IMG/VR virus record: IMGVR_UViG_3300009181_003202
Location: 1-38,145 of that record
Strand: one strand, 5' to 3'
Source of the DNA: a virus
Length of the DNA stretch: 38,145 nucleotides
Shown here piece by piece: positions 6,842 through 37,545 of this stretch. Under the pieces are notes generated by a model, which saw nothing but the letters and a program-made list of their open reading frames with translations, did not search any database and was not told where the DNA came from. Position 1 is the stretch's first letter; the number at the start of each line of letters is the position of its first letter. A program made the translations under genes and the position numbers.

Positions 6842-7564
6842 ATGAGAGATTACTTGTTAGACTTGGTAGAACACACTTACGACCTTGGTTGTATTGATTT
6901 GGTTAAAATTGTTGGTGACACCAGCAAGACTGAAATTGTTGGCTTGGCAGAAGATCTGAGTGTGGTCATTCGCGGCAACTTTCACAACCCCACAGCAGAC
7001 TTTGTGGGCACATTTGGCATGCCTAACCTGGGCAAACTAAAGACTTTGTTGAACTTGCAAGAGTACAAGGAAGATGCCAAACTTGCCATTACCAAAGGCT
7101 CAACAGGTGAGCCAGATGGCATTAATTTTGAAAACAAAATTGGCGACTTTAAAAACAACTATCGTTTTATGACATCGGGTGTAGTAAGTGAGAAGTTAAA
7201 GACTGCCAAGATTCGCCCTGTGACATGGCACATTGAGTTTGAACCAACCAATGCGGCTATTCAACGAATGAAGTGGCAAATGAGCGCCAATGCCGAGGAG
7301 GCAAACTTCCAGGCCAAAACTGAAAACGGTGATCTTAAGTTTTTCTTTGGCGATCACTCAACACACTCAGGTAACTTTGTGTTCCATCCAGGTGTTAGTG
7401 GTCAATTGAAACGTGCATGGTCATGGCCTGCCAAACAGTTTGTGAGCATCATGGACTTGACTGGTGACAAGAAAGTACGCATCAGCGATGATGGTGCCGC
7501 AGAAATCACAGTTGATTCCGGCCTAGCAGTTTATCAATATCTATTACCAGCACAAAGCAAATAA
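6842..7564 (+). CDS. 45: Sliding clamp / DNA polymerase processivity factor (T4 gp45 type)
   Basis: The 240 residues compare with 228 in T4 gp45. Family features are visible: an N-terminal LDLVEHTYDLGCIDLVKI segment, the FGMPNLGKLKTLL region, and a C-terminal MDLTGDKKVRISDDGA...ITVDSGLAVYQYLLPA strand series typical of phage clamps. In T4 the trimeric ring tethers gp43 and also activates late transcription with gp33 and gp55, so this gene links replication to the late promoters seen here. It has its own sigma-70 promoter and a TTAGGAGA RBS. It ends one base into the ATG of the next gene. Confidence 0.85.
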   Translation: MRDYLLDLVEHTYDLGCIDLVKIVGDTSKTEIVGLAEDLSVVIRGNFHNPTADFVGTFGMPNLGKLKTLLNLQEYKEDAKLAITKGSTGEPDGINFENKIGDFKNNYRFMTSGVVSEKLKTAKIRPVTWHIEFEPTNAAIQRMKWQMSANAEEANFQAKTENGDLKFFFGDHSTHSGNFVFHPGVSGQLKRAWSWPAKQFVSIMDLTGDKKVRISDDGAAEITVDSGLAVYQYLLPAQSK

Positions 7565-9129
7565 TGACTGACCCTGTTGTTCAAGACAACTTAACTGCCA
7601 AGCAAAATGACTACGCTGTGTTCCTTCCGGCCATCAGCGGATTCTATGCTACATTCGTAGGCAAACAAAGGAATGAACCATATGTGGATCCAGCACGACT
7701 GCCTCAGGGCATTACGGATATGGAGCAACTTAACTGGCTCAACTCTAATAAGGCCTTGTTTCCTTATCGGTGGTCACTGTACTCAGGAGGCCATGCTAAC
7801 CTCGATCTTGCAAAACAAGACTGGTCTGAAGACATGGTCCGTAATCGTGAGGCCGGATCTTTCATACTTGGTGACTCAGGAGGTTTCCAGATTGCCAAGG
7901 GTCTTTGGGAAGGTGATTGGAAAGCCAACTCAGGTTGTCCTAAAGCCCAAAAGAAACGAAGTCTAATCTTGAACTGGCTGGACAATGTGGCCGACTATGG
8001 CATGATCTTGGATATCCCAACTTGGGTTATTCACGACAAGAAAGCATCCGCGGCATGCCAGATCACCACACTACAAGAAGCAGTGGACGCCACCAAGTTC
8101 AACAATGACTACTTCATGAAACACCGCAAAGGTGTGGCAAATGGTGGTGCCAAGTTCTTGAACGTGCTACAAGGTGACAATCATACTTCAGCGGATCAAT
8201 GGTATGAGACTATGAAGGAATACTGCGATCCTGCCAAGTATCCAGACACACACTTTGACGGTTGGTCCATGGGTGGACAGAACATGTGTGATGTACACCT
8301 GGTGCTTCGCAGACTGGTAGCACTACGCTATGACAATTTACTTCAAGAGGGCAAACACGATTGGATGCACTTCTTGGGAACCTCCAAACTGGAGTGGGCT
8401 GTTTTATTAACTGTAATCCAAAGGGCCGTAAGAAAATATGTCAATCCGCAATTCACCATCTCGTTTGACTGCGCCAGTCCGTTCCTTGCAACAGCAAACG
8501 GACAGGTCTACTTTGAAAATGTCTTTGAACACGATAGCAAATGGTCGTATCGCATGGCTCCTTCAGCCGACGACAAAAAGTATTCCACAGACACACGCAA
8601 GTGGGGAACAGGCGTAGTAGCAGATGGCATCTATCCACGCTGGGAAGATAGCCCACTAAGTGACTTGTTGAAGATGAAAGATATTTGTATCTACAAGCCC
8701 GGCGATCTAAATAAGATTGGCAAAGAAGGCAAGACATCCTGGGACAGTTTCTCATATGCTTTGCTCATGGGGCATAATGTTTGGATGCACTTGACCGCAG
8801 TACAAGAAGCCAACAGACGTTTTGATGCAGGAGAGTATCCTGCTATGATGCGTCGTAGCACCGGAGACTATGCCCGGTTTGAAGACATTGTGGAAGCAAT
8901 CTTTGCGGCACCAGATCGAGAGACTGCCGACGCTATCGTCGAAGAGTATGACACATATTGGATGGAGATTGTGGGCACACGAGGGTTCAAAGGCAAGAAG
9001 ACCAAGAATGCCCGCACTCAATTTAATGCATTGTTTGAATTCGAAGAAACTGAGACTATACAACCAACCGATGATAGTGTACAATTAGACACATCAGCAT
9101 TAGATCAATTAGAACATGAACAGACCTGA
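7564..9129 (+). CDS. dpdA: DpdA-type DNA guanine transglycosylase (TGT superfamily)
   Basis: Predicted to exchange guanine in phage DNA for a 7-deazaguanine base. The 521-residue protein has the TGT-barrel signatures: GDSGGFQ (about 103-109, compare DSGGFQ of bacterial TGT), GWSMGGQN (about 233), a FLGTS strand corresponding to the TGT MGVG segment, and DCASPF (about 302), the position of the catalytic aspartate. The CxCxxC zinc site of tRNA-TGT is not seen, as in phage DpdA proteins. folE, queD and queE in the same window supply the base, which strongly supports DNA rather than tRNA as target. It overlaps the clamp stop by one base and the next gene by 14. Which DpdA subfamily it belongs to I cannot tell. 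Confidence 0.85.
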   Translation: MTDPVVQDNLTAKQNDYAVFLPAISGFYATFVGKQRNEPYVDPARLPQGITDMEQLNWLNSNKALFPYRWSLYSGGHANLDLAKQDWSEDMVRNREAGSFILGDSGGFQIAKGLWEGDWKANSGCPKAQKKRSLILNWLDNVADYGMILDIPTWVIHDKKASAACQITTLQEAVDATKFNNDYFMKHRKGVANGGAKFLNVLQGDNHTSADQWYETMKEYCDPAKYPDTHFDGWSMGGQNMCDVHLVLRRLVALRYDNLLQEGKHDWMHFLGTSKLEWAVLLTVIQRAVRKYVNPQFTISFDCASPFLATANGQVYFENVFEHDSKWSYRMAPSADDKKYSTDTRKWGTGVVADGIYPRWEDSPLSDLLKMKDICIYKPGDLNKIGKEGKTSWDSFSYALLMGHNVWMHLTAVQEANRRFDAGEYPAMMRRSTGDYARFEDIVEAIFAAPDRETADAIVEEYDTYWMEIVGTRGFKGKKTKNARTQFNALFEFEETETIQPTDDSVQLDTSALDQLEHEQT

Positions 9130-13032: not shown

Positions 13033-13770
13033 ATGACAGAACCAGTATCAGTAAATAACATTGATGACAAAGGCTACCAAGAAGCATATCTAGCAGATGC
13101 TATTCGTTTCAAGATGAAACGTGACAACAAACGTTTCTGGGCCGGGGACAACATCAGTGACTACGTGGATGAACAAACCAAAGTGCAACTGATCAACGAA
13201 GCCACTGTGGCATTTGAACGAGTGTTAGACACATTATTGATTGATAGAGAAAATGACCCAAACTCACAAGGTACGGCTCGCCGGTTGGCAAAGATGTACT
13301 TCAACGAAATTATGGCTGGTAGGTATGAGGAATCGCCTAATGCAACGGCTTTCCCAAATGACACAGCAGGAGCATACGAAGGTATGTTGGTGGTGCGTAG
13401 CGAGCTTAAGAGCATGTGTAGCCACCATCATCAACCTGTTACGGGTGTTGCTTATATTGGAATCATTGCTGGCGCCAAACTCATTGGTCTTTCGAAGTAC
13501 ACCAGGATCGCACAATGGTGTGCCCGACGCGGAACTCTTCAAGAAGAGCTCTGCATGGACATCGCTCGTGAGATCGAGTTCGCAACTGGATCCCGAGATG
13601 TTGCCGTTTATATTCAGGCTACCCACGGATGTTGCGAGAATCGTGGTATTATGGCTCACAGTAGTCTTACCCAAACTACCGTACTCCATGGAGCATTTAA
13701 AACAGACCAAAGTGTGAAGAAGGAATTCTTTGACAATATCAAACTACAACAGGACTTTGCACCACGATGA
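13033..13770 (+). CDS. folE: GTP cyclohydrolase I (FolE)
   Basis: Converts GTP to 7,8-dihydroneopterin triphosphate, the first step toward 7-deazaguanines. The 245-residue protein has an 80-residue N-terminal extension before the conserved core. The core shows CSHHHQPVTGVAYIG (about 129; zinc Cys and His as in CEHHLLP), GLSKYTRIAQWCARRGTLQEEL (compare GLSKIARIVDxFARRxQxQExL), and HGCCENRGI carrying the second zinc Cys. It starts one base after the aminotransferase stop with RBS AAGGA and ends in an ATGA overlap with the HIT gene. Phages with DpdA often encode it. Confidence 0.93.
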   Translation: MTEPVSVNNIDDKGYQEAYLADAIRFKMKRDNKRFWAGDNISDYVDEQTKVQLINEATVAFERVLDTLLIDRENDPNSQGTARRLAKMYFNEIMAGRYEESPNATAFPNDTAGAYEGMLVVRSELKSMCSHHHQPVTGVAYIGIIAGAKLIGLSKYTRIAQWCARRGTLQEELCMDIAREIEFATGSRDVAVYIQATHGCCENRGIMAHSSLTQTTVLHGAFKTDQSVKKEFFDNIKLQQDFAPR

Positions 13771-14208: not shown

Positions 14209-14257
14209 TTTACAAACTCTGCTGTCTATGCTATAATTTAACATAGGAGAAACAGCA
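14209..14257 (+). promoter_or_regulatory. queD sigma-70 promoter inside an RBS/start-masking hairpin
   Basis: TTTACA (14209-14214), a 17-bp spacer and TATAAT (14232-14237). TGCTGT+CTATG (14220-14230) is complementary to CATAG (14242-14246) and ACAGCA (14252-14257), with GAGAA bulged. The -10 box is in the loop and the 3' arm includes part of the AGGAGA RBS and the A of the queD ATG. RNA starting near 14244 would lack the 5' arm. Confidence 0.65.
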
Positions 14258-14763
14258 TGACAACATCAAATCCCGTAGTTTACAAGTACACCAGTACCAA
14301 AGAGTACCACGACGCATTTCCATGTGCGTACAGACAGTGGAGGAGCGATAGCCATTGTAATTTGATACATGGATATTCATTTAGCATGAAGTTCTATTTC
14401 GGAACTAACGAACTGGATGTGCGTAACTGGGCCGCCGACTACGGTGGACTCAAAGAACTAAAGAAGACCTTAGAAGACCAATTTGACCATACACTTATTG
14501 TGGCACAGGATGATCCAGAGATGGAAACATTCAAGTTACTACAAGAGCGGAATATGGCCAAGGTTGTAGTACTACCCCGTCTAGGTTGCGAAGGACTCAG
14601 CGACATGCTATACAAGTATGTTAATGGTGTTTACATTCCAGAGATGTGGGGGCCAGGCGAAGCGGCTCGTTTATGGTGTTATCGTGTGGAAGTACGTGAG
14701 ACACAGGCCAACATGGCGTTCCGTGAAGGACATCGTGAATGGAATGAGGACTTGTTTGTTTGA
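14257..14763 (+). CDS. queD: 6-carboxy-5,6,7,8-tetrahydropterin synthase (QueD)
   Basis: Converts dihydroneopterin triphosphate to 6-carboxytetrahydropterin, the second step of 7-deazaguanine synthesis. The 168-residue T-fold protein has SHCNLIHGYSFSMKFYF (about 32-48; the CxxxHGH-type motif with catalytic Cys and zinc His, here with Tyr for the last His), an acidic linker, DQFDHTLIV (compare LDHxxLN) and VEVRETQANMA with the substrate-binding Glu. It is a little longer than the usual 120-140 residues. It has its own promoter within a hairpin and lies downstream of folE. Confidence 0.85.
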   Translation: MTTSNPVVYKYTSTKEYHDAFPCAYRQWRSDSHCNLIHGYSFSMKFYFGTNELDVRNWAADYGGLKELKKTLEDQFDHTLIVAQDDPEMETFKLLQERNMAKVVVLPRLGCEGLSDMLYKYVNGVYIPEMWGPGEAARLWCYRVEVRETQANMAFREGHREWNEDLFV

Positions 14764-21537: not shown

Positions 21538-22386
21538 ATGTCTAGAATTAAAATAGCAGAATTATTTTATTCGATCCAAGGTGAAGGTCGATACATGGGT
21601 GTACCAAGTGTGTTCTTGAGAACATTTGGTTGCAATTTTAAATGTGCAGGATTTGGTATGCCACGTGGTGAAGTAAGCCACGAAGCAACTGATCTTGCGG
21701 CTACACATACAATGGTCAAGGCTTTTGAGAAGTATCAAGAACTTCCGCTTGTGAGTACCGGTTGCGATAGTTATGCGTCATGGCATCCAGACTTTAAAGA
21801 TCTAAGTCCCATGATGGATAGTAATGGAATTGTGGATCACATCATGGAGATACTGCCACATCGGCGTTGGGAAGATGAGCATCTTGTGATCACAGGTGGT
21901 GAACCATTGCTGGGTTGGCAACGTGCTTATCCAGACTTGTTGGATCATGACAGTATGCATGGTCTTAAAGAAATTACGTTCGAAACAAATGGTACTCAAA
22001 AACTTACGCCAGAGTTCAAAGAATATCTACAGCGTTGGCGGGCACAACGTGAAATCACATTCAGTGTCAGTGCCAAACTTCCCGGTTCAGGCGAGCGGTG
22101 GGAAGAGGCCATTGTTCCAGAAGTGGTATGCGAATACGAGCAAGTTGGGTATACTTACTTGAAACTGGTGGTAGCGACAGAACAGGATCTAGCAGATGCA
22201 GAACAAGCAGTGTTGGAATATCGCACAGCAGGGTTTACTGGTCCTGTGTATGTCATGCCTGTTGGTGGTGTTGAGCGGGTGTATACTCTTAACAATCGTG
22301 CAGTGGCAGAAATGGCCATGCGAAAAGGCTGGCGCTACAGTGATAGACTACAAGTGCCACTCTTCAAGAACGAATGGGGAACCTGA
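21538..22386 (+). CDS. queE: 7-carboxy-7-deazaguanine synthase (QueE), split-cysteine form
   Basis: Radical SAM enzyme making 7-carboxy-7-deazaguanine from carboxytetrahydropterin. The N-terminus AELFYSIQGEGRYMGVPSVFLRTFGCNF is the classic QueE start, and LVITGGEPLLGWQ the SAM-binding GGEP motif. VSAKLPGSGERW resembles the QueE S-x-K segment. The cluster cysteines are unusual: C32 and C36 fit CxxxC, but position 39 is Phe. A cysteine in GCDSYASW, resembling the usual WCDTxxTW, lies at 76 after an insertion of about 40 residues. So the third ligand seems displaced. The 282 residues exceed the usual 210-225. It belongs with folE, queD and dpdA. Confidence 0.85.
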   Translation: MSRIKIAELFYSIQGEGRYMGVPSVFLRTFGCNFKCAGFGMPRGEVSHEATDLAATHTMVKAFEKYQELPLVSTGCDSYASWHPDFKDLSPMMDSNGIVDHIMEILPHRRWEDEHLVITGGEPLLGWQRAYPDLLDHDSMHGLKEITFETNGTQKLTPEFKEYLQRWRAQREITFSVSAKLPGSGERWEEAIVPEVVCEYEQVGYTYLKLVVATEQDLADAEQAVLEYRTAGFTGPVYVMPVGGVERVYTLNNRAVAEMAMRKGWRYSDRLQVPLFKNEWGT

Positions 22387-28548: not shown

Positions 28549-30495
28549 ATGGAAAAAAGAATAATTCCAATCCAGACTGTTCAAGCGCCTGATCCCCGGC
28601 CACAAAATCTAGGACAAGACCCCCATGTGATTCTTACTGAAATGTACATGGCAGAAAATCGTCCTAGATTAGAAAGCCGCAAGCAAAAGAACTTGACTGA
28701 GGTTGTACAGCACACAGATGCCACACGCCAAAATCGTGTGGCTCTTGTTGTTGCGCCCGAGTGGACACAACTAGCACCACCTTACGGTATTGCTAGAATG
28801 AGCGCATTGTCCAAGCACGGGGGATGGCCCACACGAGTTTGGGATATCAACATCTTGACCAAACATGAGGCTGGAGTGCCAGAATTATGGACAGCATACG
28901 AAGATTGGAAGTGGATTGAGCCAAACTACAGTCAGAATGTACATCCTATTATTGAGCCAACCCTACGAAAATACATGGCACAGGTTATAGAATGGGCACC
29001 CACAGTAATTGGTTTTAGCACATGGTATACCAATGACACATGTACCATGTGGATGGCACAAGAATTTAAAAGACTTATCCCGGGTGTGATTATCATTATC
29101 GGTGGTGCCAATGCCACTCAATTAAAAATGACTCATTCAACCTCGATTGACTATGTGGTCAGCGGCGAGGGCGAATTGTGGTTTGTACGTATACTTGAAA
29201 ACTTAGAAAATCCCACAGAGGAAATTCCACAACTTTGTGTGCAAAGTAAAGATCAAAAAATAGATCTTGATTCAATGCCGCCTGCTGACTATTCTGACAT
29301 GGATATCAGTTTATACGATGGCCAAGGAATCAGTTGTGAATTCAGTCGTGGCTGCACTAGCAATTGTGTGTACTGCAATGAAACAGTGTTTTGGAAATAC
29401 CGTTCAAGACAGGCCAGTCGAGTGTTAGAGGAAATTGAAATTGTGTACCGACAGCAAAATGCAAAATCAGTATGGTTTATTGACAGTTTACTAAATGGCA
29501 ATTTGCGTGAATTGGAATCATTTGCACTAGGGTTAATTGATAGAGAAATTAAAATCAAATGGCAAGGATATGCTCGCATTGATGGTAGAATGGATCGAGA
29601 CTTTTGGGGACTGCTACAAAAAGCAGGTGCTAGTGGGTTTGCATTTGGTGTTGAATCTGGGTCACAACGAGTGTTGGATCTTATGAAAAAGAATTGCAAG
29701 GTTGAGTGGATTGAACAAAACTTTCAAGATCTAAATGACAACAAATTGAGAAATAATTTTGCCACATGGTTCACTGGTTTTCCTGGGGAAGAATTAACCG
29801 ATGTAGCACAAACCATGACCATGATATGGCGATTACGTATATCAGGCATGGGCGGACTGAGTTCCGGCACATGCGGCCTTGGGCACAACACACCTTTGGA
29901 ACTAGAACGCGAACGGTTTGGGGTCCGACCCGAAGGTCAAGACTGGTGTTATGGCTGGGCTACTACCGACGGCAAAAATACCGGATTCACTAGATTTATT
30001 CGTTGGAAAACGACCAATATCTTGATAGAACAATTTAGATTACACAACACACCACCGTGGTTAAAACCTGTCAAACAATATCCTACGTTAGAAAATCACT
30101 ATAGTATAGAATATGATCCTGCCAACTGGCTTGATCCTATACCCTGGGAAAAAGACTTTGATTATTACGTAATCAAGGACGACATCAATCCCATTGCCAA
30201 TCACCTGGTGAATGAGATATGGCCATTCTTGCGTGTGACTTGGCTGGCCATGGGTGCTTATCAATTTCATCTAGAATTTGATCCCGAACTAGACCTAGAA
30301 GAATTTGGTTATCTTCGTTATCCACGCGGCGGTGATCATAAATTATGGGCAAGGTATGATTTTGAAATCAATGCCTCTGGCGTATGGTCAGCAGATTTTG
30401 ATATAAGAATGCAAGGTGAACCATGGCAAGGGGTACCAACTGATTTTCACTTAGAATGGAAACAAAGTGGCCAATGGGACCGTCCCCGGGCTTGA
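28549..30495 (+). CDS. Second B12-binding-type radical SAM protein
   Basis: 648 residues. The N-terminus carries a cobalamin-domain pattern (YGIARMSALSKHGGWPTRVWDIN; VIGFSTWYTNDT; IIIIGGANATQLK; YVVSGEGELWFV). The radical SAM cluster is SRGCTSNCVYCNETVFWKYRSR (Cys about 269, 273, 276). SVWFIDSLLNGN and FGVESGSQRVLDLMKKN follow the usual barrel strands. The C-terminal 200 residues are rich in Trp and Asp and unique. Substrate unknown. No obvious RBS is present. It is not next to sugar genes, unlike the protein at 14775, so the two may differ in role. Confidence 0.8.
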   Translation: MEKRIIPIQTVQAPDPRPQNLGQDPHVILTEMYMAENRPRLESRKQKNLTEVVQHTDATRQNRVALVVAPEWTQLAPPYGIARMSALSKHGGWPTRVWDINILTKHEAGVPELWTAYEDWKWIEPNYSQNVHPIIEPTLRKYMAQVIEWAPTVIGFSTWYTNDTCTMWMAQEFKRLIPGVIIIIGGANATQLKMTHSTSIDYVVSGEGELWFVRILENLENPTEEIPQLCVQSKDQKIDLDSMPPADYSDMDISLYDGQGISCEFSRGCTSNCVYCNETVFWKYRSRQASRVLEEIEIVYRQQNAKSVWFIDSLLNGNLRELESFALGLIDREIKIKWQGYARIDGRMDRDFWGLLQKAGASGFAFGVESGSQRVLDLMKKNCKVEWIEQNFQDLNDNKLRNNFATWFTGFPGEELTDVAQTMTMIWRLRISGMGGLSSGTCGLGHNTPLELERERFGVRPEGQDWCYGWATTDGKNTGFTRFIRWKTTNILIEQFRLHNTPPWLKPVKQYPTLENHYSIEYDPANWLDPIPWEKDFDYYVIKDDINPIANHLVNEIWPFLRVTWLAMGAYQFHLEFDPELDLEEFGYLRYPRGGDHKLWARYDFEINASGVWSADFDIRMQGEPWQGVPTDFHLEWKQSGQWDRPRA

Positions 30496-31701: not shown

Positions 31702-32223
31702 ATGACCAAAATAAATTCCAGTCCCGAACGTCATACCTTTCAAGAACAAAGTTACATCGACCGATGCCGGGAAGAAGGTAACAATCCCAGCGAGGATTAC
31801 TTGAATATGTTCAAGTCTCGGCGTGAGCAGGATCAAGAACGCATGGCCGATCCTGCCTGGCAAAAAAACAACATGGAATACGACTTGCGCAGTACCCCGT
31901 GGATCTGTGACAAAGTCAAGAGCAATAAAACTTACGCTCAGAACTTGTATGCGGCCATGTGTAACATGGAGTTTGTGAAAAACGAGGTCTGGCCTTTGCT
32001 CAAGGATCAACGCTGGAGTGCCAGTTGGCGCTATGCAGGCGGCATTGTGGCTGACATGCGCGAATCGGGCGACTACATTGAGTGGTACTGCTCGGGCATA
32101 CAGGGTGAGCCTGATGAGGACTGGGTAGATCTAGGGCATGTGCCCGAAGGCACTGTAACGGATCAAATACGCGAGGATTTGTTCCGATTGGGATGGATTC
32201 CAAAAGATTCGAATGATGTTTGA
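31702..32223 (+). CDS. Conserved phage protein, unknown function
   Basis: The ATG at 31702, just after the Arg tRNA, gives 173 residues; a longer frame runs through the tRNA and is not credible. Features: SYIDRCREEGNNPSEDYLNMFKSRREQDQERMADPAWQKNN, NKTYAQNLYAAMCNMEFVKNEVWPLLKDQRWSASWR, GGIVADMRESGDYIEWYCSGI and a C-terminal LGWIPKD. It has the look of a T4-like family of unknown role. A GATAAATA motif overlaps its stop codon. Confidence 0.65.
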   Translation: MTKINSSPERHTFQEQSYIDRCREEGNNPSEDYLNMFKSRREQDQERMADPAWQKNNMEYDLRSTPWICDKVKSNKTYAQNLYAAMCNMEFVKNEVWPLLKDQRWSASWRYAGGIVADMRESGDYIEWYCSGIQGEPDEDWVDLGHVPEGTVTDQIREDLFRLGWIPKDSNDV

Positions 32224-32229
32224 TAAATA
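32222..32229 (+). promoter_or_regulatory. Late promoter GATAAATA before the DctP-like gene
   Basis: GATAAATA overlaps the preceding stop codon. The ATG at 32258 follows with a CTAGGAGA RBS. No strong hairpin encloses this promoter. Confidence 0.55.
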
Positions 32230-32257: not shown

Positions 32258-33232
32258 ATGTCAAAACCCCGTAAAATCAGATGGCTTATTGCACATCAGC
32301 CACAAGAGTTATTTGTGCGTACCGCTCGAGCATTCAGCGAAGAACTCAATAAAACTTGTGCCGGTGAACTAGAAGTTGAAATTTTAACCTATCCAGAATA
32401 TCGCGAAAAATATCGTTCTATTCCCAACCTAGAAATCCTTGATCAAGCCGATGTTGACATTGACGCCGCTATCAAGAGTTTTTGGCAAGCACTGTTCGAT
32501 AGTGAAATAGAAATGAGCCAAATCCAAGTTGGACAAGTTGGAGAATTATACTCTGATTTCCATGCTCTGGACATGCCATTTATATTTGACAATCACGATC
32601 ATGTGAGCGAAACATTAGAAGGCCCAATAGGTCAAGAACTGTGCTACAACCTGGGACAGAAGTCAGGTGTGACTGGATTGGCATTTACCTATTCCGGCGG
32701 CTATCGTGTGATTGGCAGTGACGAACCTATCCTAACTTTGGATGAGTTGAAAAACAAACGCATTGTTGTTCAAAACCCAATCACACTAGGCACCACTATT
32801 GAAAGCATGGGCGGAAAAGCAATTCCGATAAAACCATGCCTTTGGAACAAATACGACTTGATAGGCAAAGGTGAAGCCGATGCTGTGGAAACGACCTATC
32901 TACGATTCAACGGCAAACATGTGCTCAAAACCAATCATTCCATGTTCATGACCACTATTGTGGTCAGCAACAAGTTTTGGGATTCATTGACTGACCAACA
33001 ACAGCAAGCATTTAGTCAGGCTGCACTGGTGGCATCACGCAAAGAGCGTGAATGGAGCATTCAAGATGGTGAAACATTCGAAGCCAATGCCGTTAAGAAT
33101 GGTATTACCATTACTGAAATCTCTAAGCAAGACACTGAGGCATTAAAGCACAAGTCTCAAATGACTTATGTCAAAACCAAATATTTCTTCACACCTGATT
33201 TAGTAAAACGCATTAGACAAACTCGACACTAA
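32258..33232 (+). CDS. TRAP-type solute-binding protein (DctP family) without signal peptide
   Basis: 324 residues, the size of a mature DctP-type periplasmic binding protein. Family landmarks: an initial strand (IRWLIAHQPQELFVRTARAFSEEL), a helix before QVGELYSDFHALDMPFIFDNHDHV, GVTGLAFTYSGGYRVIGSDEPI, LDELKNKRIVVQNPITLGTTIESMGGKAIPI (the carboxylate-binding Arg region) and KTNHSMFMTTIVVSNKFWDSL. Normal DctP proteins have an N-terminal signal; here the frame starts directly at strand one with MSKPRKIRW, so it should stay in the cytoplasm or enter virions. No TRAP membrane subunits are nearby. A late promoter and strong RBS (TAGGAGA) precede it and a terminator follows. Confidence 0.8.
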   Translation: MSKPRKIRWLIAHQPQELFVRTARAFSEELNKTCAGELEVEILTYPEYREKYRSIPNLEILDQADVDIDAAIKSFWQALFDSEIEMSQIQVGQVGELYSDFHALDMPFIFDNHDHVSETLEGPIGQELCYNLGQKSGVTGLAFTYSGGYRVIGSDEPILTLDELKNKRIVVQNPITLGTTIESMGGKAIPIKPCLWNKYDLIGKGEADAVETTYLRFNGKHVLKTNHSMFMTTIVVSNKFWDSLTDQQQQAFSQAALVASRKEREWSIQDGETFEANAVKNGITITEISKQDTEALKHKSQMTYVKTKYFFTPDLVKRIRQTRH

Positions 33233-33234
33233 AA

Positions 33235-33254
33235 AAAGCGGCTTCGGCCGCTTT
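33235..33254 (+). terminator. Intrinsic terminator after the DctP-like gene
   Basis: AAAGCGGC-TTCG-GCCGCTTT: an 8-bp perfect stem with a UUCG tetraloop, followed by CTTAT. The T-run is short but stem and loop are very stable. A late promoter follows 2 bases later. Confidence 0.85.
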
Positions 33255-33256
33255 CT

Positions 33257-33264
33257 TATAAATA
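33257..33264 (+). promoter_or_regulatory. Late promoter TATAAATA upstream of the first Bug gene
   Basis: An exact TATAAATA right after the terminator. It would give a 5' leader of about 140 nt before the Bug-type gene at 33414. The leader (33265-33413) holds no gene that I can support. Confidence 0.65.
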
Positions 33265-33366
33265 TTTCTGTAACGCCAGCAACAGGCTGACGTCGGTATT
33301 TCCAGTGACGCCTGGGGTAGTAACCCTTTTACTGACATAACTATGCTCAGAACGCCGCACCGTATG

Positions 33367-33408
33367 TAGACCTCCTACTAGCAATTGTGTATAATAGACT
33401 TTTAGGAG
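33367..33408 (+). promoter_or_regulatory. Sigma-70 promoter and weak RBS-masking repeat of the first Bug gene
   Basis: TAGACC (33367-33372), a 17-bp spacer and TATAAT (33390-33395). CTCCTA (33372-33377) complements TAGGAG (33403-33408), the RBS, with the -10 in a 25-nt loop. Only 6 bp, so the hairpin is less certain than the others. Confidence 0.5.
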
Positions 33409-33413
33409 AAACC

Positions 33414-34298
33414 ATGATCAAAAAATTCACACAATTCATTTTTGCTTTGGCATTTTCGGCCACAGTATTTGCCGGAGACCCAATCACTATTGTTGTTCCA
33501 ACACCGCCAGGTGGTGCAATTGATATCACTGCACGTAGTTTATCAAAGGCATTGATGAACAAGGGACATGACAACGTGGTGGTATATCACCCCGGTGCCA
33601 ACGGAGACATTGCTCTGAACATTGCTGTGGAAAAACGAGACAATATTATATTTGTTGCAAGTTCTGCAAACTTTGTATTTTCCAATGTGTTGCTCAATAG
33701 AGAAAACATCTATGCCACAAAAACACAACTGCTAGGACCATCTGTTACCAACCCAATGGTTTTTATCACTCCCGAATCTGGTGAAGTCAAAACGTTCCGA
33801 GAACTGATTGAATCAGCAAAGAAAAAAGAAACTGTGTGTGGTGTCAGCAACAGCCACGGTGAAATCGAACTCAAACAAATCAACTCCACCTACGGCACTA
33901 AATTTGTACCAGTGCCCTACAAAGGAACAGGCCAGATGATTCCGGACATTGTGGGTGGTCATACTCCCTGTGGCTACGATCAGATTGCGGCGTACACTGG
34001 ATTAGAAGGCAAAGTAAAATTCCTTGCATCCAGCAAGGCTGTGCGTAGTGACATTCCTGCCATGAGTACTGTGTTGCCAAAATATCAATTTGAGACTTGG
34101 TATGCCACAGCAATTCCCAACAACAGCAATTTGTTGAAGAATGCAGAATTGATCAGCATTATCAAAACATGGAACCAGGATGCAGAACTGACCAAACCTC
34201 TTACAGAAAGAAGTTTTGTAGTGGTCAAAGCAGATGCTGACTTGAATGCCAGGGCCGTCAAAGAAACTGAATACTACAGAGATCAACTTAAAAAATAA
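33414..34298 (+). CDS. Exported Bug/TctC-family solute-binding protein (first copy)
   Basis: 294 residues from ATG 33414 after AGGAGAAACC. The N-terminus is a clear Sec signal (MIKKFTQFIFALAFSATVFA, cleavage before GDP). The mature protein starts ITIVVPTPPGGAIDITARSLSKAL, the Bug-family PPGGxxD-AR element, followed by YHPGANGDIALNIA (the NxPGAxG loop) and VPYKGTGQMIPDIVGGH, matching the YxGxxxxxxDLxxG motif of the binding site. Such proteins bind carboxylates for tripartite tricarboxylate transporters and are abundant in Burkholderiales. No TctA/TctB is here, so it would have to work with host permeases or serve another purpose. Confidence 0.85.
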   Translation: MIKKFTQFIFALAFSATVFAGDPITIVVPTPPGGAIDITARSLSKALMNKGHDNVVVYHPGANGDIALNIAVEKRDNIIFVASSANFVFSNVLLNRENIYATKTQLLGPSVTNPMVFITPESGEVKTFRELIESAKKKETVCGVSNSHGEIELKQINSTYGTKFVPVPYKGTGQMIPDIVGGHTPCGYDQIAAYTGLEGKVKFLASSKAVRSDIPAMSTVLPKYQFETWYATAIPNNSNLLKNAELISIIKTWNQDAELTKPLTERSFVVVKADADLNARAVKETEYYRDQLKK

Positions 34299-34299
34299 C

Positions 34300-35415
34300 A
34301 TGGTATCATATCAAGTAAACGGGCAACATTACAACAATGTGTTTCTAGCCCTGCGAGATTGCTGGAAAAACAATCACGAACTTAAATTTTACTGTTATGA
34401 CTATGAGTTTGATCAATTTGATTGGACTCTGGAACCCGAAGCATCGCTAGACTTCTTGATGACGCAACATGCTCTTGCCTTGCGTGAGAAATATGAGCGA
34501 CTGATTCTGTTATGGAGTGGCGGCACTGACAGTCATACTATCTACAACATTTTTAAACGTAACAATATTCACATTGACGAACTGATCATCAAGGCCGGAG
34601 AAGATTCAGAAATGTTTCCCGAGCGCAATGTATACTGGATCCAAAATAATCACTGGGATCCAACCACAATCATCACACGCTACGATGATCACGACACTGA
34701 CCTGCGACTGATTGATTTGCCCGACGAAGACTGGGTATGGAAGAACAAAGGCGACCTACTCAAATACGGCAACACAAGTTCTGCAGATGCTGTGAAATTT
34801 CTGTGCGAAAAAAATCACGCCGGGCACACATGGAAAGCCATAGGTGGCTACGAAAAACCCAGACTGATCTATCGTGACGGTGCTTGGTATCATAGACAAC
34901 TCAGCATGGTGCTACAACCTACAATGGGCCATGATTATATTGAACATTTTTTCTTTGAGCCATTGATTGCAATCAAACAAGCACACATGGTCAAACGTGC
35001 GGTTAAAAACATCATTAAACAAACTGCACAACCGTTGTACAGTAATGACTGGGCTGAGTCCAAATGGGACAAAGATCCTGCAGGATACCGTGCCTGGGCC
35101 ACTGCTTGCGGAAGACACGACGAAGTTTATATCGGAGTCAGCCACACACAAAAAATTGGCAACGAATCTTTTGATCAACTGCAACTACAGGTACACGGTG
35201 ACTGGCGCAATGTACACAGTTCTGATCGACATCTGCTTCATGACTTGTCCGACAACAATCCGGCAGCGGTAAACTATCTCAAAGGATTTCATAATTTGAC
35301 CAGTGAGTTTGGATTTACCAATTGGTTACGGGACAACGGCTGGTTTAGATCTGGCGACATGCGTTTTAGCAGTTTGAAATTTACATGGTCAAAGGAGTAC
35401 TGTATCGGTCCATGA
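34300..35415 (+). CDS. PP-loop ATP pyrophosphatase-type protein
   Basis: 371 residues from ATG 34300, 1 base after the Bug stop. RLILLWSGGTDSHTIYNIFKRN (SGGTDS about 73-78) is the PP-loop motif of enzymes that adenylate a carboxylate or carbonyl (asparagine synthetase, GuaA, QueC, TilS). The rest is not typical for any of them: no QueC-type C-terminal zinc cysteines, and a long C-terminal half with MGHDYIEHFFFEPL and FDQLQLQVHGDW. It may be an amide- or thio-forming enzyme. As it is not QueC-like, it probably does not complete preQ0 synthesis, though this cannot be excluded. Confidence 0.65.
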   Translation: MVSYQVNGQHYNNVFLALRDCWKNNHELKFYCYDYEFDQFDWTLEPEASLDFLMTQHALALREKYERLILLWSGGTDSHTIYNIFKRNNIHIDELIIKAGEDSEMFPERNVYWIQNNHWDPTTIITRYDDHDTDLRLIDLPDEDWVWKNKGDLLKYGNTSSADAVKFLCEKNHAGHTWKAIGGYEKPRLIYRDGAWYHRQLSMVLQPTMGHDYIEHFFFEPLIAIKQAHMVKRAVKNIIKQTAQPLYSNDWAESKWDKDPAGYRAWATACGRHDEVYIGVSHTQKIGNESFDQLQLQVHGDWRNVHSSDRHLLHDLSDNNPAAVNYLKGFHNLTSEFGFTNWLRDNGWFRSGDMRFSSLKFTWSKEYCIGP

Positions 35416-35424
35416 CCAGTGGAT

Positions 35425-35459
35425 TTTTAACTACTGGGCTATAAATACAGTAGTTAGGA
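35425..35459 (+). promoter_or_regulatory. Hairpin masking an RBS with late promoter TATAAATA in its loop
   Basis: TAACTACTG (35428-35436) pairs perfectly with CAGTAGTTA (35448-35456), extendable by two T-G wobbles and a T-A pair to 35425/35459. The 11-nt loop contains TATAAATA (35440-35447). AGGA (35456-35459), the RBS of the small gene at 35467, is in the extended 3' arm. Confidence 0.75.
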
Positions 35460-35466
35460 TTTTGCC

Positions 35467-35646
35467 ATGAGCCGGACTCTGATCTGGGTGTTGAGTTTTA
35501 GTGTCTTAGGACCGGTGCCTGAGTATGGCGAACAGGCCAAGTTCAAAACTCAGGCAGAATGCGAGCAAGCCCGAGTTCAAAAACGTGAAGAATTCCGGGC
35601 ACAAAACAAACAGATTGTGGCCGCATGTCATGTGAGTACCAAATAG
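35467..35646 (+). CDS. Small secreted-type protein with Cys pair (59 residues)
   Basis: ATG at 35467 after TTAGGATTTTGCC. The protein begins with a hydrophobic segment (MSRTLIWVLSFSVLGPVP), possibly a signal or anchor, and continues as a charged helix with two cysteines (AECEQARVQKREEFRAQNKQ, then VAACHV). The layout matches the small protein at 27754, suggesting a family. The enclosing hairpin with an internal late promoter indicates late-only translation. The function is unknown; a periplasmic role in late infection is a guess. Confidence 0.6.
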   Translation: MSRTLIWVLSFSVLGPVPEYGEQAKFKTQAECEQARVQKREEFRAQNKQIVAACHVSTK

Positions 35647-35647
35647 G

Positions 35648-35676
35648 TTGACAAACAACCTGTATAAATATATACT
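35648..35676 (+). promoter_or_regulatory. Dual sigma-70 and late promoter of the tmRNA
   Basis: TTGACA (35648-35653), a 17-bp spacer and TATACT (35671-35676). TATAAATA (35663-35670) lies immediately before the -10. So both host-type and phage late polymerase could transcribe it, starting near 35683 or slightly upstream. A short repeat AGGTTG/CAACCT (35645-35661) surrounds the -35. Confidence 0.75.
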
Positions 35677-35682
35677 GTAAGT

Positions 35683-35945
35683 TATTGCTGTATGAAGCCG
35701 ATAAAAATGGATTCAAGACCCGGGGGCAGTGCCCGGCATCTCCACCTAAGTGTATGAGGTATATTTAGGTGGGGATGACACAGGATCGATTGGGTCAGGA
35801 GTATTGAAGTGGACAGCACGACAGCGATAGTCGTAAAAACTAAACAAAAGTAACCGCTAACGACTCACAGTTCGCATTGGCCGCTTGATTGTAGCCTAGG
35901 GTTTTGATAGGTTTTCCTCGTAACAGAATAAACCTATCTCCTATT
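35683..35945 (+). ncRNA. ssrA: Two-piece (permuted) tmRNA, tag ANDSQFALAA
   Basis: The acceptor piece comes first: T-arm CCGGG-GGCAGTG-CCCGG (35720-35736) then CATCTCC-A-CC (35737-35746). An intervening loop follows, then the coding piece starting GGGGATG (35771-35777), which closes the acceptor stem. The precursor stem is 13 bp (35737-35749/35765-35777, one G-U). GGGGATGACACAGGATCGAT resembles the tmRNA 5' consensus. The tag frame, GCT (35856-35858) to TGA (35886-35888), reads ANDSQFALAA, close to beta-proteobacterial tags. GACCC (35717-35721) can pair with GGGTC (35792-35796) as part of helix P2. A 9-bp hairpin (35906-35938) follows. Ends are approximate. CCA is only partly encoded. Confidence 0.85.
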
Positions 35946-35956
35946 TTCAACTTCTC

Positions 35957-36655
35957 ATGGCAACGCATTACAAATACCTAGGTAATATCCGCAATATTCC
36001 TCCACATTCGGAGTGGAACGAATTTTTAAGTCACGGTCAAACTATTGCACAAAGTATTCCCAGTTTACAGGAAGCAAAACACATCAGCCGTCTGGCAGTG
36101 GCAGATCAGTTGACTCGAGAACTAGGGTACAAAGACACTGATATTGGTACTATTGTGGGTGAGTCAGCAGATCCCAAAGACTTTGATAGATGGTTGGTCA
36201 CCGATACTGCCGTGATAGAACGTATCGGTGATTTGATCGGCTATCGCAAGCCCAGTGGTCGAGTACAAACACTTGTACCAGGTGCGTTGCAACCATTGCA
36301 TATAGATGAACTGGGATACGGTTACATTGCTCCTGAAGAATCTAGTATACACAAGATTCAATTCAGTGAGGAGGAACTTGCGGCTTTTCAAAATGATAGA
36401 CGCACTGCCAGTCGTGTGTTAATATTGCTCACTGACTGGCGCTGGGGACAAGGTATTATTTTTGGAGACGAAATTTACACTCACTGGCGGACCGGAGATG
36501 TTGTGCATTGGGATTGGCCCACAGGTGCTCACAGCACTTTCAACGCTGGATACTGGCACAGGGCTCTGTTGCGATTGAGTGGTTTAGTCACAGATCGGTT
36601 CAAAGAACTGGCTGAATCCAGCGTACCTTTTGAATTGGATTACAATCAATTATGA
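35957..36655 (+). CDS. 2-oxoglutarate/Fe(II)-dependent oxygenase-like protein
   Basis: 232 residues with a double-stranded beta-helix pattern: LVPGALQPLHIDELGYGY gives the HxD pair (about 115/117); SRVLILLTDWRWGQGIIFGDEIYTHWRTGDVVHWDWPTGAHSTFNAGYWHRALLRLSG gives the strands, distal His (in WHRALLRLSG) and nearby Arg for 2-oxoglutarate. Phages often carry such hydroxylases. The substrate could be a protein, nucleic acid or small molecule; nothing here decides. No RBS is evident. It follows the tmRNA hairpin and overlaps the second Bug gene by ATGA. Confidence 0.75.
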   Translation: MATHYKYLGNIRNIPPHSEWNEFLSHGQTIAQSIPSLQEAKHISRLAVADQLTRELGYKDTDIGTIVGESADPKDFDRWLVTDTAVIERIGDLIGYRKPSGRVQTLVPGALQPLHIDELGYGYIAPEESSIHKIQFSEEELAAFQNDRRTASRVLILLTDWRWGQGIIFGDEIYTHWRTGDVVHWDWPTGAHSTFNAGYWHRALLRLSGLVTDRFKELAESSVPFELDYNQL

Positions 36656-37545
36656 AAAAACTTTTACTCTCATTATTACTTGTGGCTTCTGCTCATGCGG
36701 CAGAACCATTGAAAATTATTGTTACCTATGCGGCCGGGGGCAACACTGACCTTGCGGCACGTGTGTATGCCAAGGAATTGGCACGCCAGGGCGTTGAGGC
36801 TATAGTAGTCAACAAACCTGGCGCCGAAGGCCTAGTTGGCATGCAGGAGTTGATGGCTGCCAAGCCCGACGGCAACACTGTGATGTATACCGGTAGCAGT
36901 GCAGTGGTTTACAATTCTGCCAGTAACCCCGCGGCCCACGAAATCATGACAAAGATTGTGCCACTCATGCGTGGTGCCACAAACGGCCAGATGCTAGTCA
37001 GTCGCAAAGACTCCGACATCCGCACAGTCGAGCAACTGAAGTCTGCATTGAAAACACGCACTGTGGCTGTGGGCAACAATGGCGCTATTACCAGAATTGC
37101 ACTTGAAGAATTGCTGGGCAACAATCCCAATCTCATCATGGTGAACTACAACGGTGACAATGCGGCCATGTTGGCATTGATGAACAAGAGTATCGAAGTT
37201 ACCACTGTTACTTTCTTGTTGGAGGATCGAGTTGCCACTGGAGAACTAAACGGCCTGGCAGTGCTAACCCCAAAGGGACGTAATGGTATAAAAAGTCTTG
37301 TGGAACTTGGGTACAATATCAGCCAAGAAGGCTGGACTGGGTTCTGGGCGCCACCGGGAACCCCCAAAGACACACGTGATCGCTTGTACAACATGCTAGA
37401 AAGTGCTAGAGCCAACGAAGAAGTGCAAAAACAAATTCTCACTGTGGTACATGCTGGAGTTCCCCGAAAACAAACACCCGATGAGTTTGCACGTGATATT
37501 GAGCGTGAGTATCAACAGGTAGTAAAACTATTGACTAAGAAATGA
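36652..37545 (+). CDS. Exported Bug/TctC-family solute-binding protein (second copy)
   Basis: 297 residues with a textbook signal peptide (MKKLLLSLLLVASAHA, cleavage before AEP). The mature part, IIVTYAAGGNTDLAARVYAKELARQG, is the family GGxxDxxAR start; VVNKPGAEGLVGMQELMAAKPDGNTVMY is the NKPGAxGxxGxxxxxxAxPDGxT hallmark; and LGYNISQEGWTGFWAPPGTPKDTRDRL the conserved PxGTP region near the C-terminus. It is closer to the family consensus than the 33414 copy, so the two are divergent rather than a recent duplication. Coupled to the 2OG oxygenase by ATGA, which hints at a linked small-molecule role. Confidence 0.88.
   Translation: MKKLLLSLLLVASAHAAEPLKIIVTYAAGGNTDLAARVYAKELARQGVEAIVVNKPGAEGLVGMQELMAAKPDGNTVMYTGSSAVVYNSASNPAAHEIMTKIVPLMRGATNGQMLVSRKDSDIRTVEQLKSALKTRTVAVGNNGAITRIALEELLGNNPNLIMVNYNGDNAAMLALMNKSIEVTTVTFLLEDRVATGELNGLAVLTPKGRNGIKSLVELGYNISQEGWTGFWAPPGTPKDTRDRLYNMLESARANEEVQKQILTVVHAGVPRKQTPDEFARDIEREYQQVVKLLTKK

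Follow-up and report, generated by a model that had tools for sequence, protein, structure and literature searches.

Phage genes for nutrient handling are usually reported singly, as host-derived helpers. Here, 5.3 kb of a T4-type jumbo-phage fragment encode three solute-binding proteins (SBPs): one DctP-like protein and two Bug/TctC-like proteins, here Bug1 and Bug2. The fragment is the 38-kb IMG/VR virus record IMGVR_UViG_3300009181_003202, all 38,145 nucleotides (nt) of which form what we call the window. Its DNA polymerase has its nearest relatives among jumbo myovirus polymerases. An original prediction made from the letters of the window had named the same three proteins, and Pfam matches to PF03480 and, twice, to PF03401 agree; it overlooked a PP-loop ATPase gene and a conserved leader RNA lying among them. 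Our favoured reading, of moderate confidence, is that the window carries part of a late, RNA-switched phage regulon for small-molecule uptake. Family membership, signal status, recurrence of the module, conservation and covariation of the RNA, and its association with uptake genes were all read from sequence.

The DctP-like protein shares with SBPs of tripartite ATP-independent periplasmic (TRAP) transporters, such as DctP (PF03480), SiaP, and IseP, both the fold and a domain match over most of its length (E 3.7e-32, 112.2 bits against a cut-off of 23.4). Its AlphaFold2 (AF2) model (pLDDT 93) matches the TRAP SBP 4p47 in Foldseek with an E value of 2.6e-24 and a TM score of 0.81. It differs from these proteins in lacking a signal peptide, as its N-terminus, MSKPRKIRWLIAHQP, begins directly at the mature domain. 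Only two of 127 phage relatives had a possible signal, both explained by an internal Met. The nearest bacterial relatives, mainly from metagenome-assembled genomes of Bdellovibrionota, mostly carry signal peptides, and a few signal-less bacterial copies lie on contigs with ordinary chromosomal neighbours (L090 1170-2117, L107 9989-10936, L091, and L093). A multi-transmembrane transporter resembling the major facilitator superfamily adjoins the signal-less gene in L090, L093, and L107. A quick tree set the phage and bacterial relatives together apart from canonical DctP (SH-aLRT 99), and three changes of signal state were needed on it. The DctP-like protein is probably cytosolic, judging by its N-terminus. 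Because it lacks a signal peptide, delivery to the periplasm is expected for the two Bugs alone, and the earlier picture of all three proteins as one periplasmic set is not supported for this member of a signal-less phage family.

The window protein also departs from canonical TRAP SBPs at a key residue. The carboxylate-binding arginine of TRAP SBPs, Arg-147 in SiaP, is conserved in 96.8% of the family (PMC4646407). At the aligned position the window protein has Val170, and Arg is found in 33/33 canonical rows, 17 of 24 bacterial relatives, and 40 of 110 phage rows. The phage proteins have a signature of their own, including TYSGG, R216, and T232; invariant across 71 distinct phage rows are W9, H13, P15, F19, F26, TYSGG144-148, R150, T213, R216, H227, T232, and E263-R264. 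In some phages the gene is divided between an N-half open reading frame (ORF) and one or two C-half ORFs (L027 10125-11666, L028 9603-11141, L049 5653-6610, and L054 8961-9945), the C-half ORFs retaining the canonical Arg motif (KVRTN/KIRTN). No DctQ or DctM membrane partner appeared among the named neighbours, though no search aimed at DctQ/DctM was made.

Bug1 and Bug2 resemble the Bug/TctC proteins of tripartite tricarboxylate transporters (TTT; PF03401) in Sec signal, in family score, and in a GG..D..R segment near the N-terminus, and their solved relatives are BugD and Bug27. The Bug1 ORF (33387-34298) is open also from a GTG at 33387, with the ATG at 33414, which follows a Shine-Dalgarno (SD) sequence, the likelier start; it matches PF03401 with an E value of 7e-8 and 32.8 bits, and Bug2 reaches 83.6 bits, against a cut-off of 27. 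As had been proposed, the two diverge (24% mutual identity) and both have Sec signals by a hydrophobicity heuristic, which also finds a possible signal in 80/81 phage Bugs vs 0/119 PP-loop proteins. Unlike known TTT proteins, these are phage-borne, paired with a PP-loop ATPase, and associated with an upstream leader RNA, with no TctA permease in the sequenced part of the window phage. The suggestion that the binding proteins come without their transporters thus stands for the window and, as to TctA, for two longer contigs, but not for several relatives, in which TctA (Pfam E 9e-31 to 7e-39) adjoins Bug; TctA is present in G006, G012, and G019-G021. Since some bacteria have far more TTT binding proteins than a single transporter requires (434 in Rhodoplanes; PMC5994714), the window phage could plausibly rely on a host permease.

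The PP-loop protein shares the SGGxDS motif, near-invariant in its family, and a weak fold resemblance (best Foldseek E 1.7e-3) with PP-loop ATP pyrophosphatases of the LarE, carbapenam synthetase, and QueC type, but it matches no Pfam or NCBIfam family. In 64 groups of loci anchored on the DctP-like gene, PP-loop and Bug-like genes were the commonest neighbours, found in 21 (20 within 5 kb) and 14 (12 within 5 kb), respectively. The reverse test, a scan with an alignment of the closer subset of PP-loop members, gave 60 distinct anchored loci; DctP-like genes occurred in 43 of them, Bugs in 40, and the full trio in 31. Bug and PP-loop genes frequently lie side by side, and the pairing repeats at separate positions within one genome (e.g., G004). 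PADLOC returned no match for the module proteins. By gene content, then, the DctP-like, Bug, and PP-loop genes are a recurrent phage module.

Reading the sequences upstream of these genes revealed a conserved block, AACGCC..GACGTCGG..GACGC..TTTAC..AACGCC..CCGTA, which in the window lies between the DctP-like and Bug1 genes. In its consensus structure, internal hairpins sit within a closing helix and a 3' hairpin completes the fold; the trimmed alignment has 33 invariant columns. Covariation among 39 sequences was 0.442 vs 0.183 when shuffled, a value reached by 0/500 shuffles. For 54 distinct sequences held out of model building, covariation was 0.579 vs 0.207, with 331 vs 112 double-changed cells, in an alignment that was fitted to the model and so leans toward structure. 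Helices 1 and 3 barely vary, and covariation does not test them. Like known riboswitch and structured-RNA classes in Rfam 15, the element occupies a 5' leader position, has a covarying multi-helix fold, and precedes coherent genes; assignment to one of those classes was rejected, as none matched at its gathering score and permissive matches were at chance level. Among 12 long jumbo-phage records, nine hold one or two copies, beside module genes. None was found in 143 genomes of one bacterial class, where an empty answer proves little. Isolate phages gave no convincing match to the RNA or to the DctP-like, Bug2, or PP-loop queries, only weak fragments (20-25% identity, unannotated records). Our search of the open-access literature found no description of the RNA or of the signal-less DctP family, which is not proof of novelty.

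In loci fetched through the proteins, the next gene at 63 distinct RNA sites was DctP-like in 38, Bug in 22, and other or none in three. IMG/VR was also scanned with two RNA patterns alone, which removes the bias of protein anchoring; the counts are among the matches listed. All 48 loci newly fetched with the second pattern hold a match to the model, and the first gene at 70 distinct pattern sites was Bug/TctC in 20, DctP-like in 14, PP-loop in eight, DUF2061 in five, TctA in two, unlabelled in 18, and a contig end in three. Among the unlabelled or downstream genes that we examined were those for TctA permeases, porins, TauD, and a fatty acid desaturase. In L335 the RNA is followed by a PotD-like SBP, two ATP-binding cassette (ABC) permeases, and an ATPase-like ORF, and in L392 by an NMT1 SBP, a permease, and a PP-loop gene. 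The common theme of these genes is import. The substrate capture offered in the original prediction is supported as a model, because in relatives this RNA also stands in front of genes for TctA permeases, porins, and complete ABC importers. In L355, a tryptophan-halogenase-family gene (342-2021; PF04820 E 4.1e-53) lies directly after the RNA, followed by Bug and PP-loop genes.

The RNA also follows a T4-type late-promoter box at most sites. In 66/76 sites the T4-late-type motif TAAATA ends 5-6 nt short of the RNA, where the rate expected by chance is about 0.009. The exact box TATAAATA occurs four times in the window, vs 1.07 expected, including at 33257, 35440, and 35663, and it lies within 200 nt of 26/135 DctP-like genes vs 91/1593 other ORFs (Fisher p 3e-7). 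The copy at 35663 was rejected as a promoter, as it falls inside a match to a permuted beta-type transfer-messenger RNA (tmRNA). Late promoters had been placed next to these genes in the original prediction, and the box immediately 5' of the Bug1 leader RNA supports late timing for Bug1. We infer a T4-type late promoter here, with the RNA as the putative 5' end of the transcript.

In the scheme that these observations suggest, the late promoter would start a transcript with the structured RNA of about 113 nt at its 5' end. This RNA, most likely a riboswitch, would control the Bug1 and PP-loop genes. Sec would carry Bug1 and Bug2 into the periplasm, where they would capture a ligand, and a TctA-type permease, phage-encoded in several relatives and probably host-encoded for the window phage, would import it. 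The cytoplasmic DctP-like protein might carry, buffer, or sense a related small molecule by binding it, and adenylation by the PP-loop ATPase might activate the imported compound. Late timing, ligand sensing, the direction of transport, PP-loop chemistry, and the function of the DctP-like protein are all inferred in this scheme. A broader proposal, which we offer tentatively and rate at somewhat short of even chances, is that the RNA represents an undescribed riboswitch class, here found in phages only, that senses one metabolite and switches on interchangeable phage import systems (TTT, ABC, and porins) that supply a phage PP-loop enzyme, TRAP-type binding proteins having become carriers or sensors in the cytosol.

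Several points weigh against an RNA-switched uptake regulon. Signals were scored with the hydrophobicity heuristic and not a dedicated predictor, a cytosolic SBP is unnecessary for import, and TctA was not found in the window phage or in its two longer relatives (G000, G009, and G018), all of them fragments. The loci share ancestry, so the locus counts are not independent, and some first genes after the RNA are not uptake genes (a TauD-like oxygenase, a fatty acid desaturase, a radical SAM protein, and a Trp halogenase). Three of the 12 long jumbo-phage records hold all or some of the protein genes with no match to the RNA. The single-sequence fold of the window leader is no better than that of shuffles (z -0.03), and the RNA does not generally pair with the SD. 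A general role for the 3' hairpin in sequestering the SD was rejected, as the best pairing averaged 4.64 vs 4.38 after shuffling; in the minimum free energy fold of the window leader, CUCCUA pairs with UAGGAG.

The rival that survives best, although we think it unlikely, is a ligand-independent structured leader that might, for example, be recognised by a protein of the phage or the host or make late mRNA more stable, with the genes behind it a loose late auxiliary set. The unremarkable fold and the lack of general SD pairing fit such a leader, as do the T4-late-type box immediately 5' of the RNA and the diversity of the downstream genes. However, long jumbo-phage records hold only 0-2 copies, so the RNA is not a generic late leader, and its large invariant core, four covarying hairpins, and small-molecule uptake theme fit a sensor better. 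It is improbable that the signal-less DctP-like protein instead soaks up or senses, in the cytosol, a metabolite of host signalling or defence, the Bugs playing an accessory part. The 127 phage members without a real signal, the SBP fold of high model confidence with its invariant TYSGG-R-R216-H227 set, the multiple paralogues, and the split N- and C-half genes would suit that role, but the protein has no PADLOC match, bacterial copies lie on chromosome-like contigs, and the RNA precedes importers and porins too. Another account is remodelling of the envelope or superinfection exclusion, the cell surface being changed or blocked by Bugs and porins late in infection. It draws on the export of the Bugs and on the porin genes found behind the RNA, but the gene set also includes permeases, complete ABC importers, and a cytosolic ATPase, which point to import, and we consider this account highly improbable. 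Although SBPs are typically bacterial genes, contamination or a bacterial-phage chimera is so very unlikely as to be negligible, because the block recurs in two longer IMG/VR contigs, one of 149 kb (100% identity) that also carries a T4-type gp23 capsid gene and one of 89 kb with the same genes (Bugs 92-99% identical), and the DctP-like and RNA families have many phage relatives.

The nearest precedent for a regulon of this kind is cyanophage pstS, a phage-borne periplasmic SBP thought to help nutrient uptake during infection (PMC6359870); the window system differs in its protein families, late-type promoter, leader RNA, cytosolic SBP, and PP-loop partner. An earlier record of tctA in a virus is a single domain match in a viral contig, of unknown role (PMC4164917). 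If the uptake reading is right, many uncultivated jumbo phages share a recurrent uptake regulon that is marked by a structured RNA absent from Rfam, and they also carry a family of TRAP-type binding proteins that has lost its export signal. The RNA offers a direct handle, as its ligand can be sought in vitro, with neither phage nor host in culture, and that ligand would reveal what jumbo phages import or monitor during infection.

Table 1. Features of the SBP region and its immediate surroundings, in window coordinates.
Feature	Position	Strand	Basis or remark
GATAAATA, T4-late-type box variant	32222..32229	+	36 nt upstream of DctP-like start
DctP-like protein (TRAP SBP fold), no signal peptide, Val170 for canonical Arg	32258..33232	+	PF03480, AF2, Foldseek, alignments
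GC-rich hairpin, probable intrinsic terminator	33235..33254	+	After DctP-like stop; sequence read
TATAAATA late-promoter box	33257..33264	+	Ends 5 nt before RNA element
Conserved structured leader RNA, candidate riboswitch, ~113 nt	33270..33382	+	31 nt before Bug1 ATG; covariance model R1 90.5 bits, E 8.8e-19
Bug/TctC-like protein 1 (Bug1), Sec signal	33414..34298	+	PF03401; Bug27 2qpq E 3.5e-15; signal heuristic
PP-loop ATPase, SGGTDS motif	34300..35415	+	Starts 1 nt after Bug1 stop; AF2 pLDDT 83; weak Foldseek to PP-loop enzymes
Permuted beta-type tmRNA	35634..35949	+	Rfam RF01850 112 bits, RF04321 112.2 bits; between both Bug blocks, neighbour outside module
232-aa protein, no family assigned	35957..36655	+	Overlaps Bug2 start by 4 nt
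Bug/TctC-like protein 2 (Bug2), Sec signal	36652..37545	+	PF03401 E 2.3e-23; BugD 2f5x E 1.2e-20

Among the neighbours, the permuted beta-type tmRNA (Table 1), which ARAGORN did not call, suggests betaproteobacterial hosts, and L187, L190, L198, L203, L232, and L335 have comparable tmRNAs and tRNA arrays close to the module. A B12-binding radical SAM protein is encoded at 28549-30495 of the window, and in relatives the neighbourhood of the DctP-like gene often includes radical SAM genes. Judged by eye, the window also holds 7-deazaguanine DNA-modification-like genes (TGT-like, FolE, QueD, and QueE) at 7564-9129, 13033-13770, 14257-14763, and 21538-22386, and, at about 10.2-21.5 kb, a cluster of sugar-nucleotide genes.

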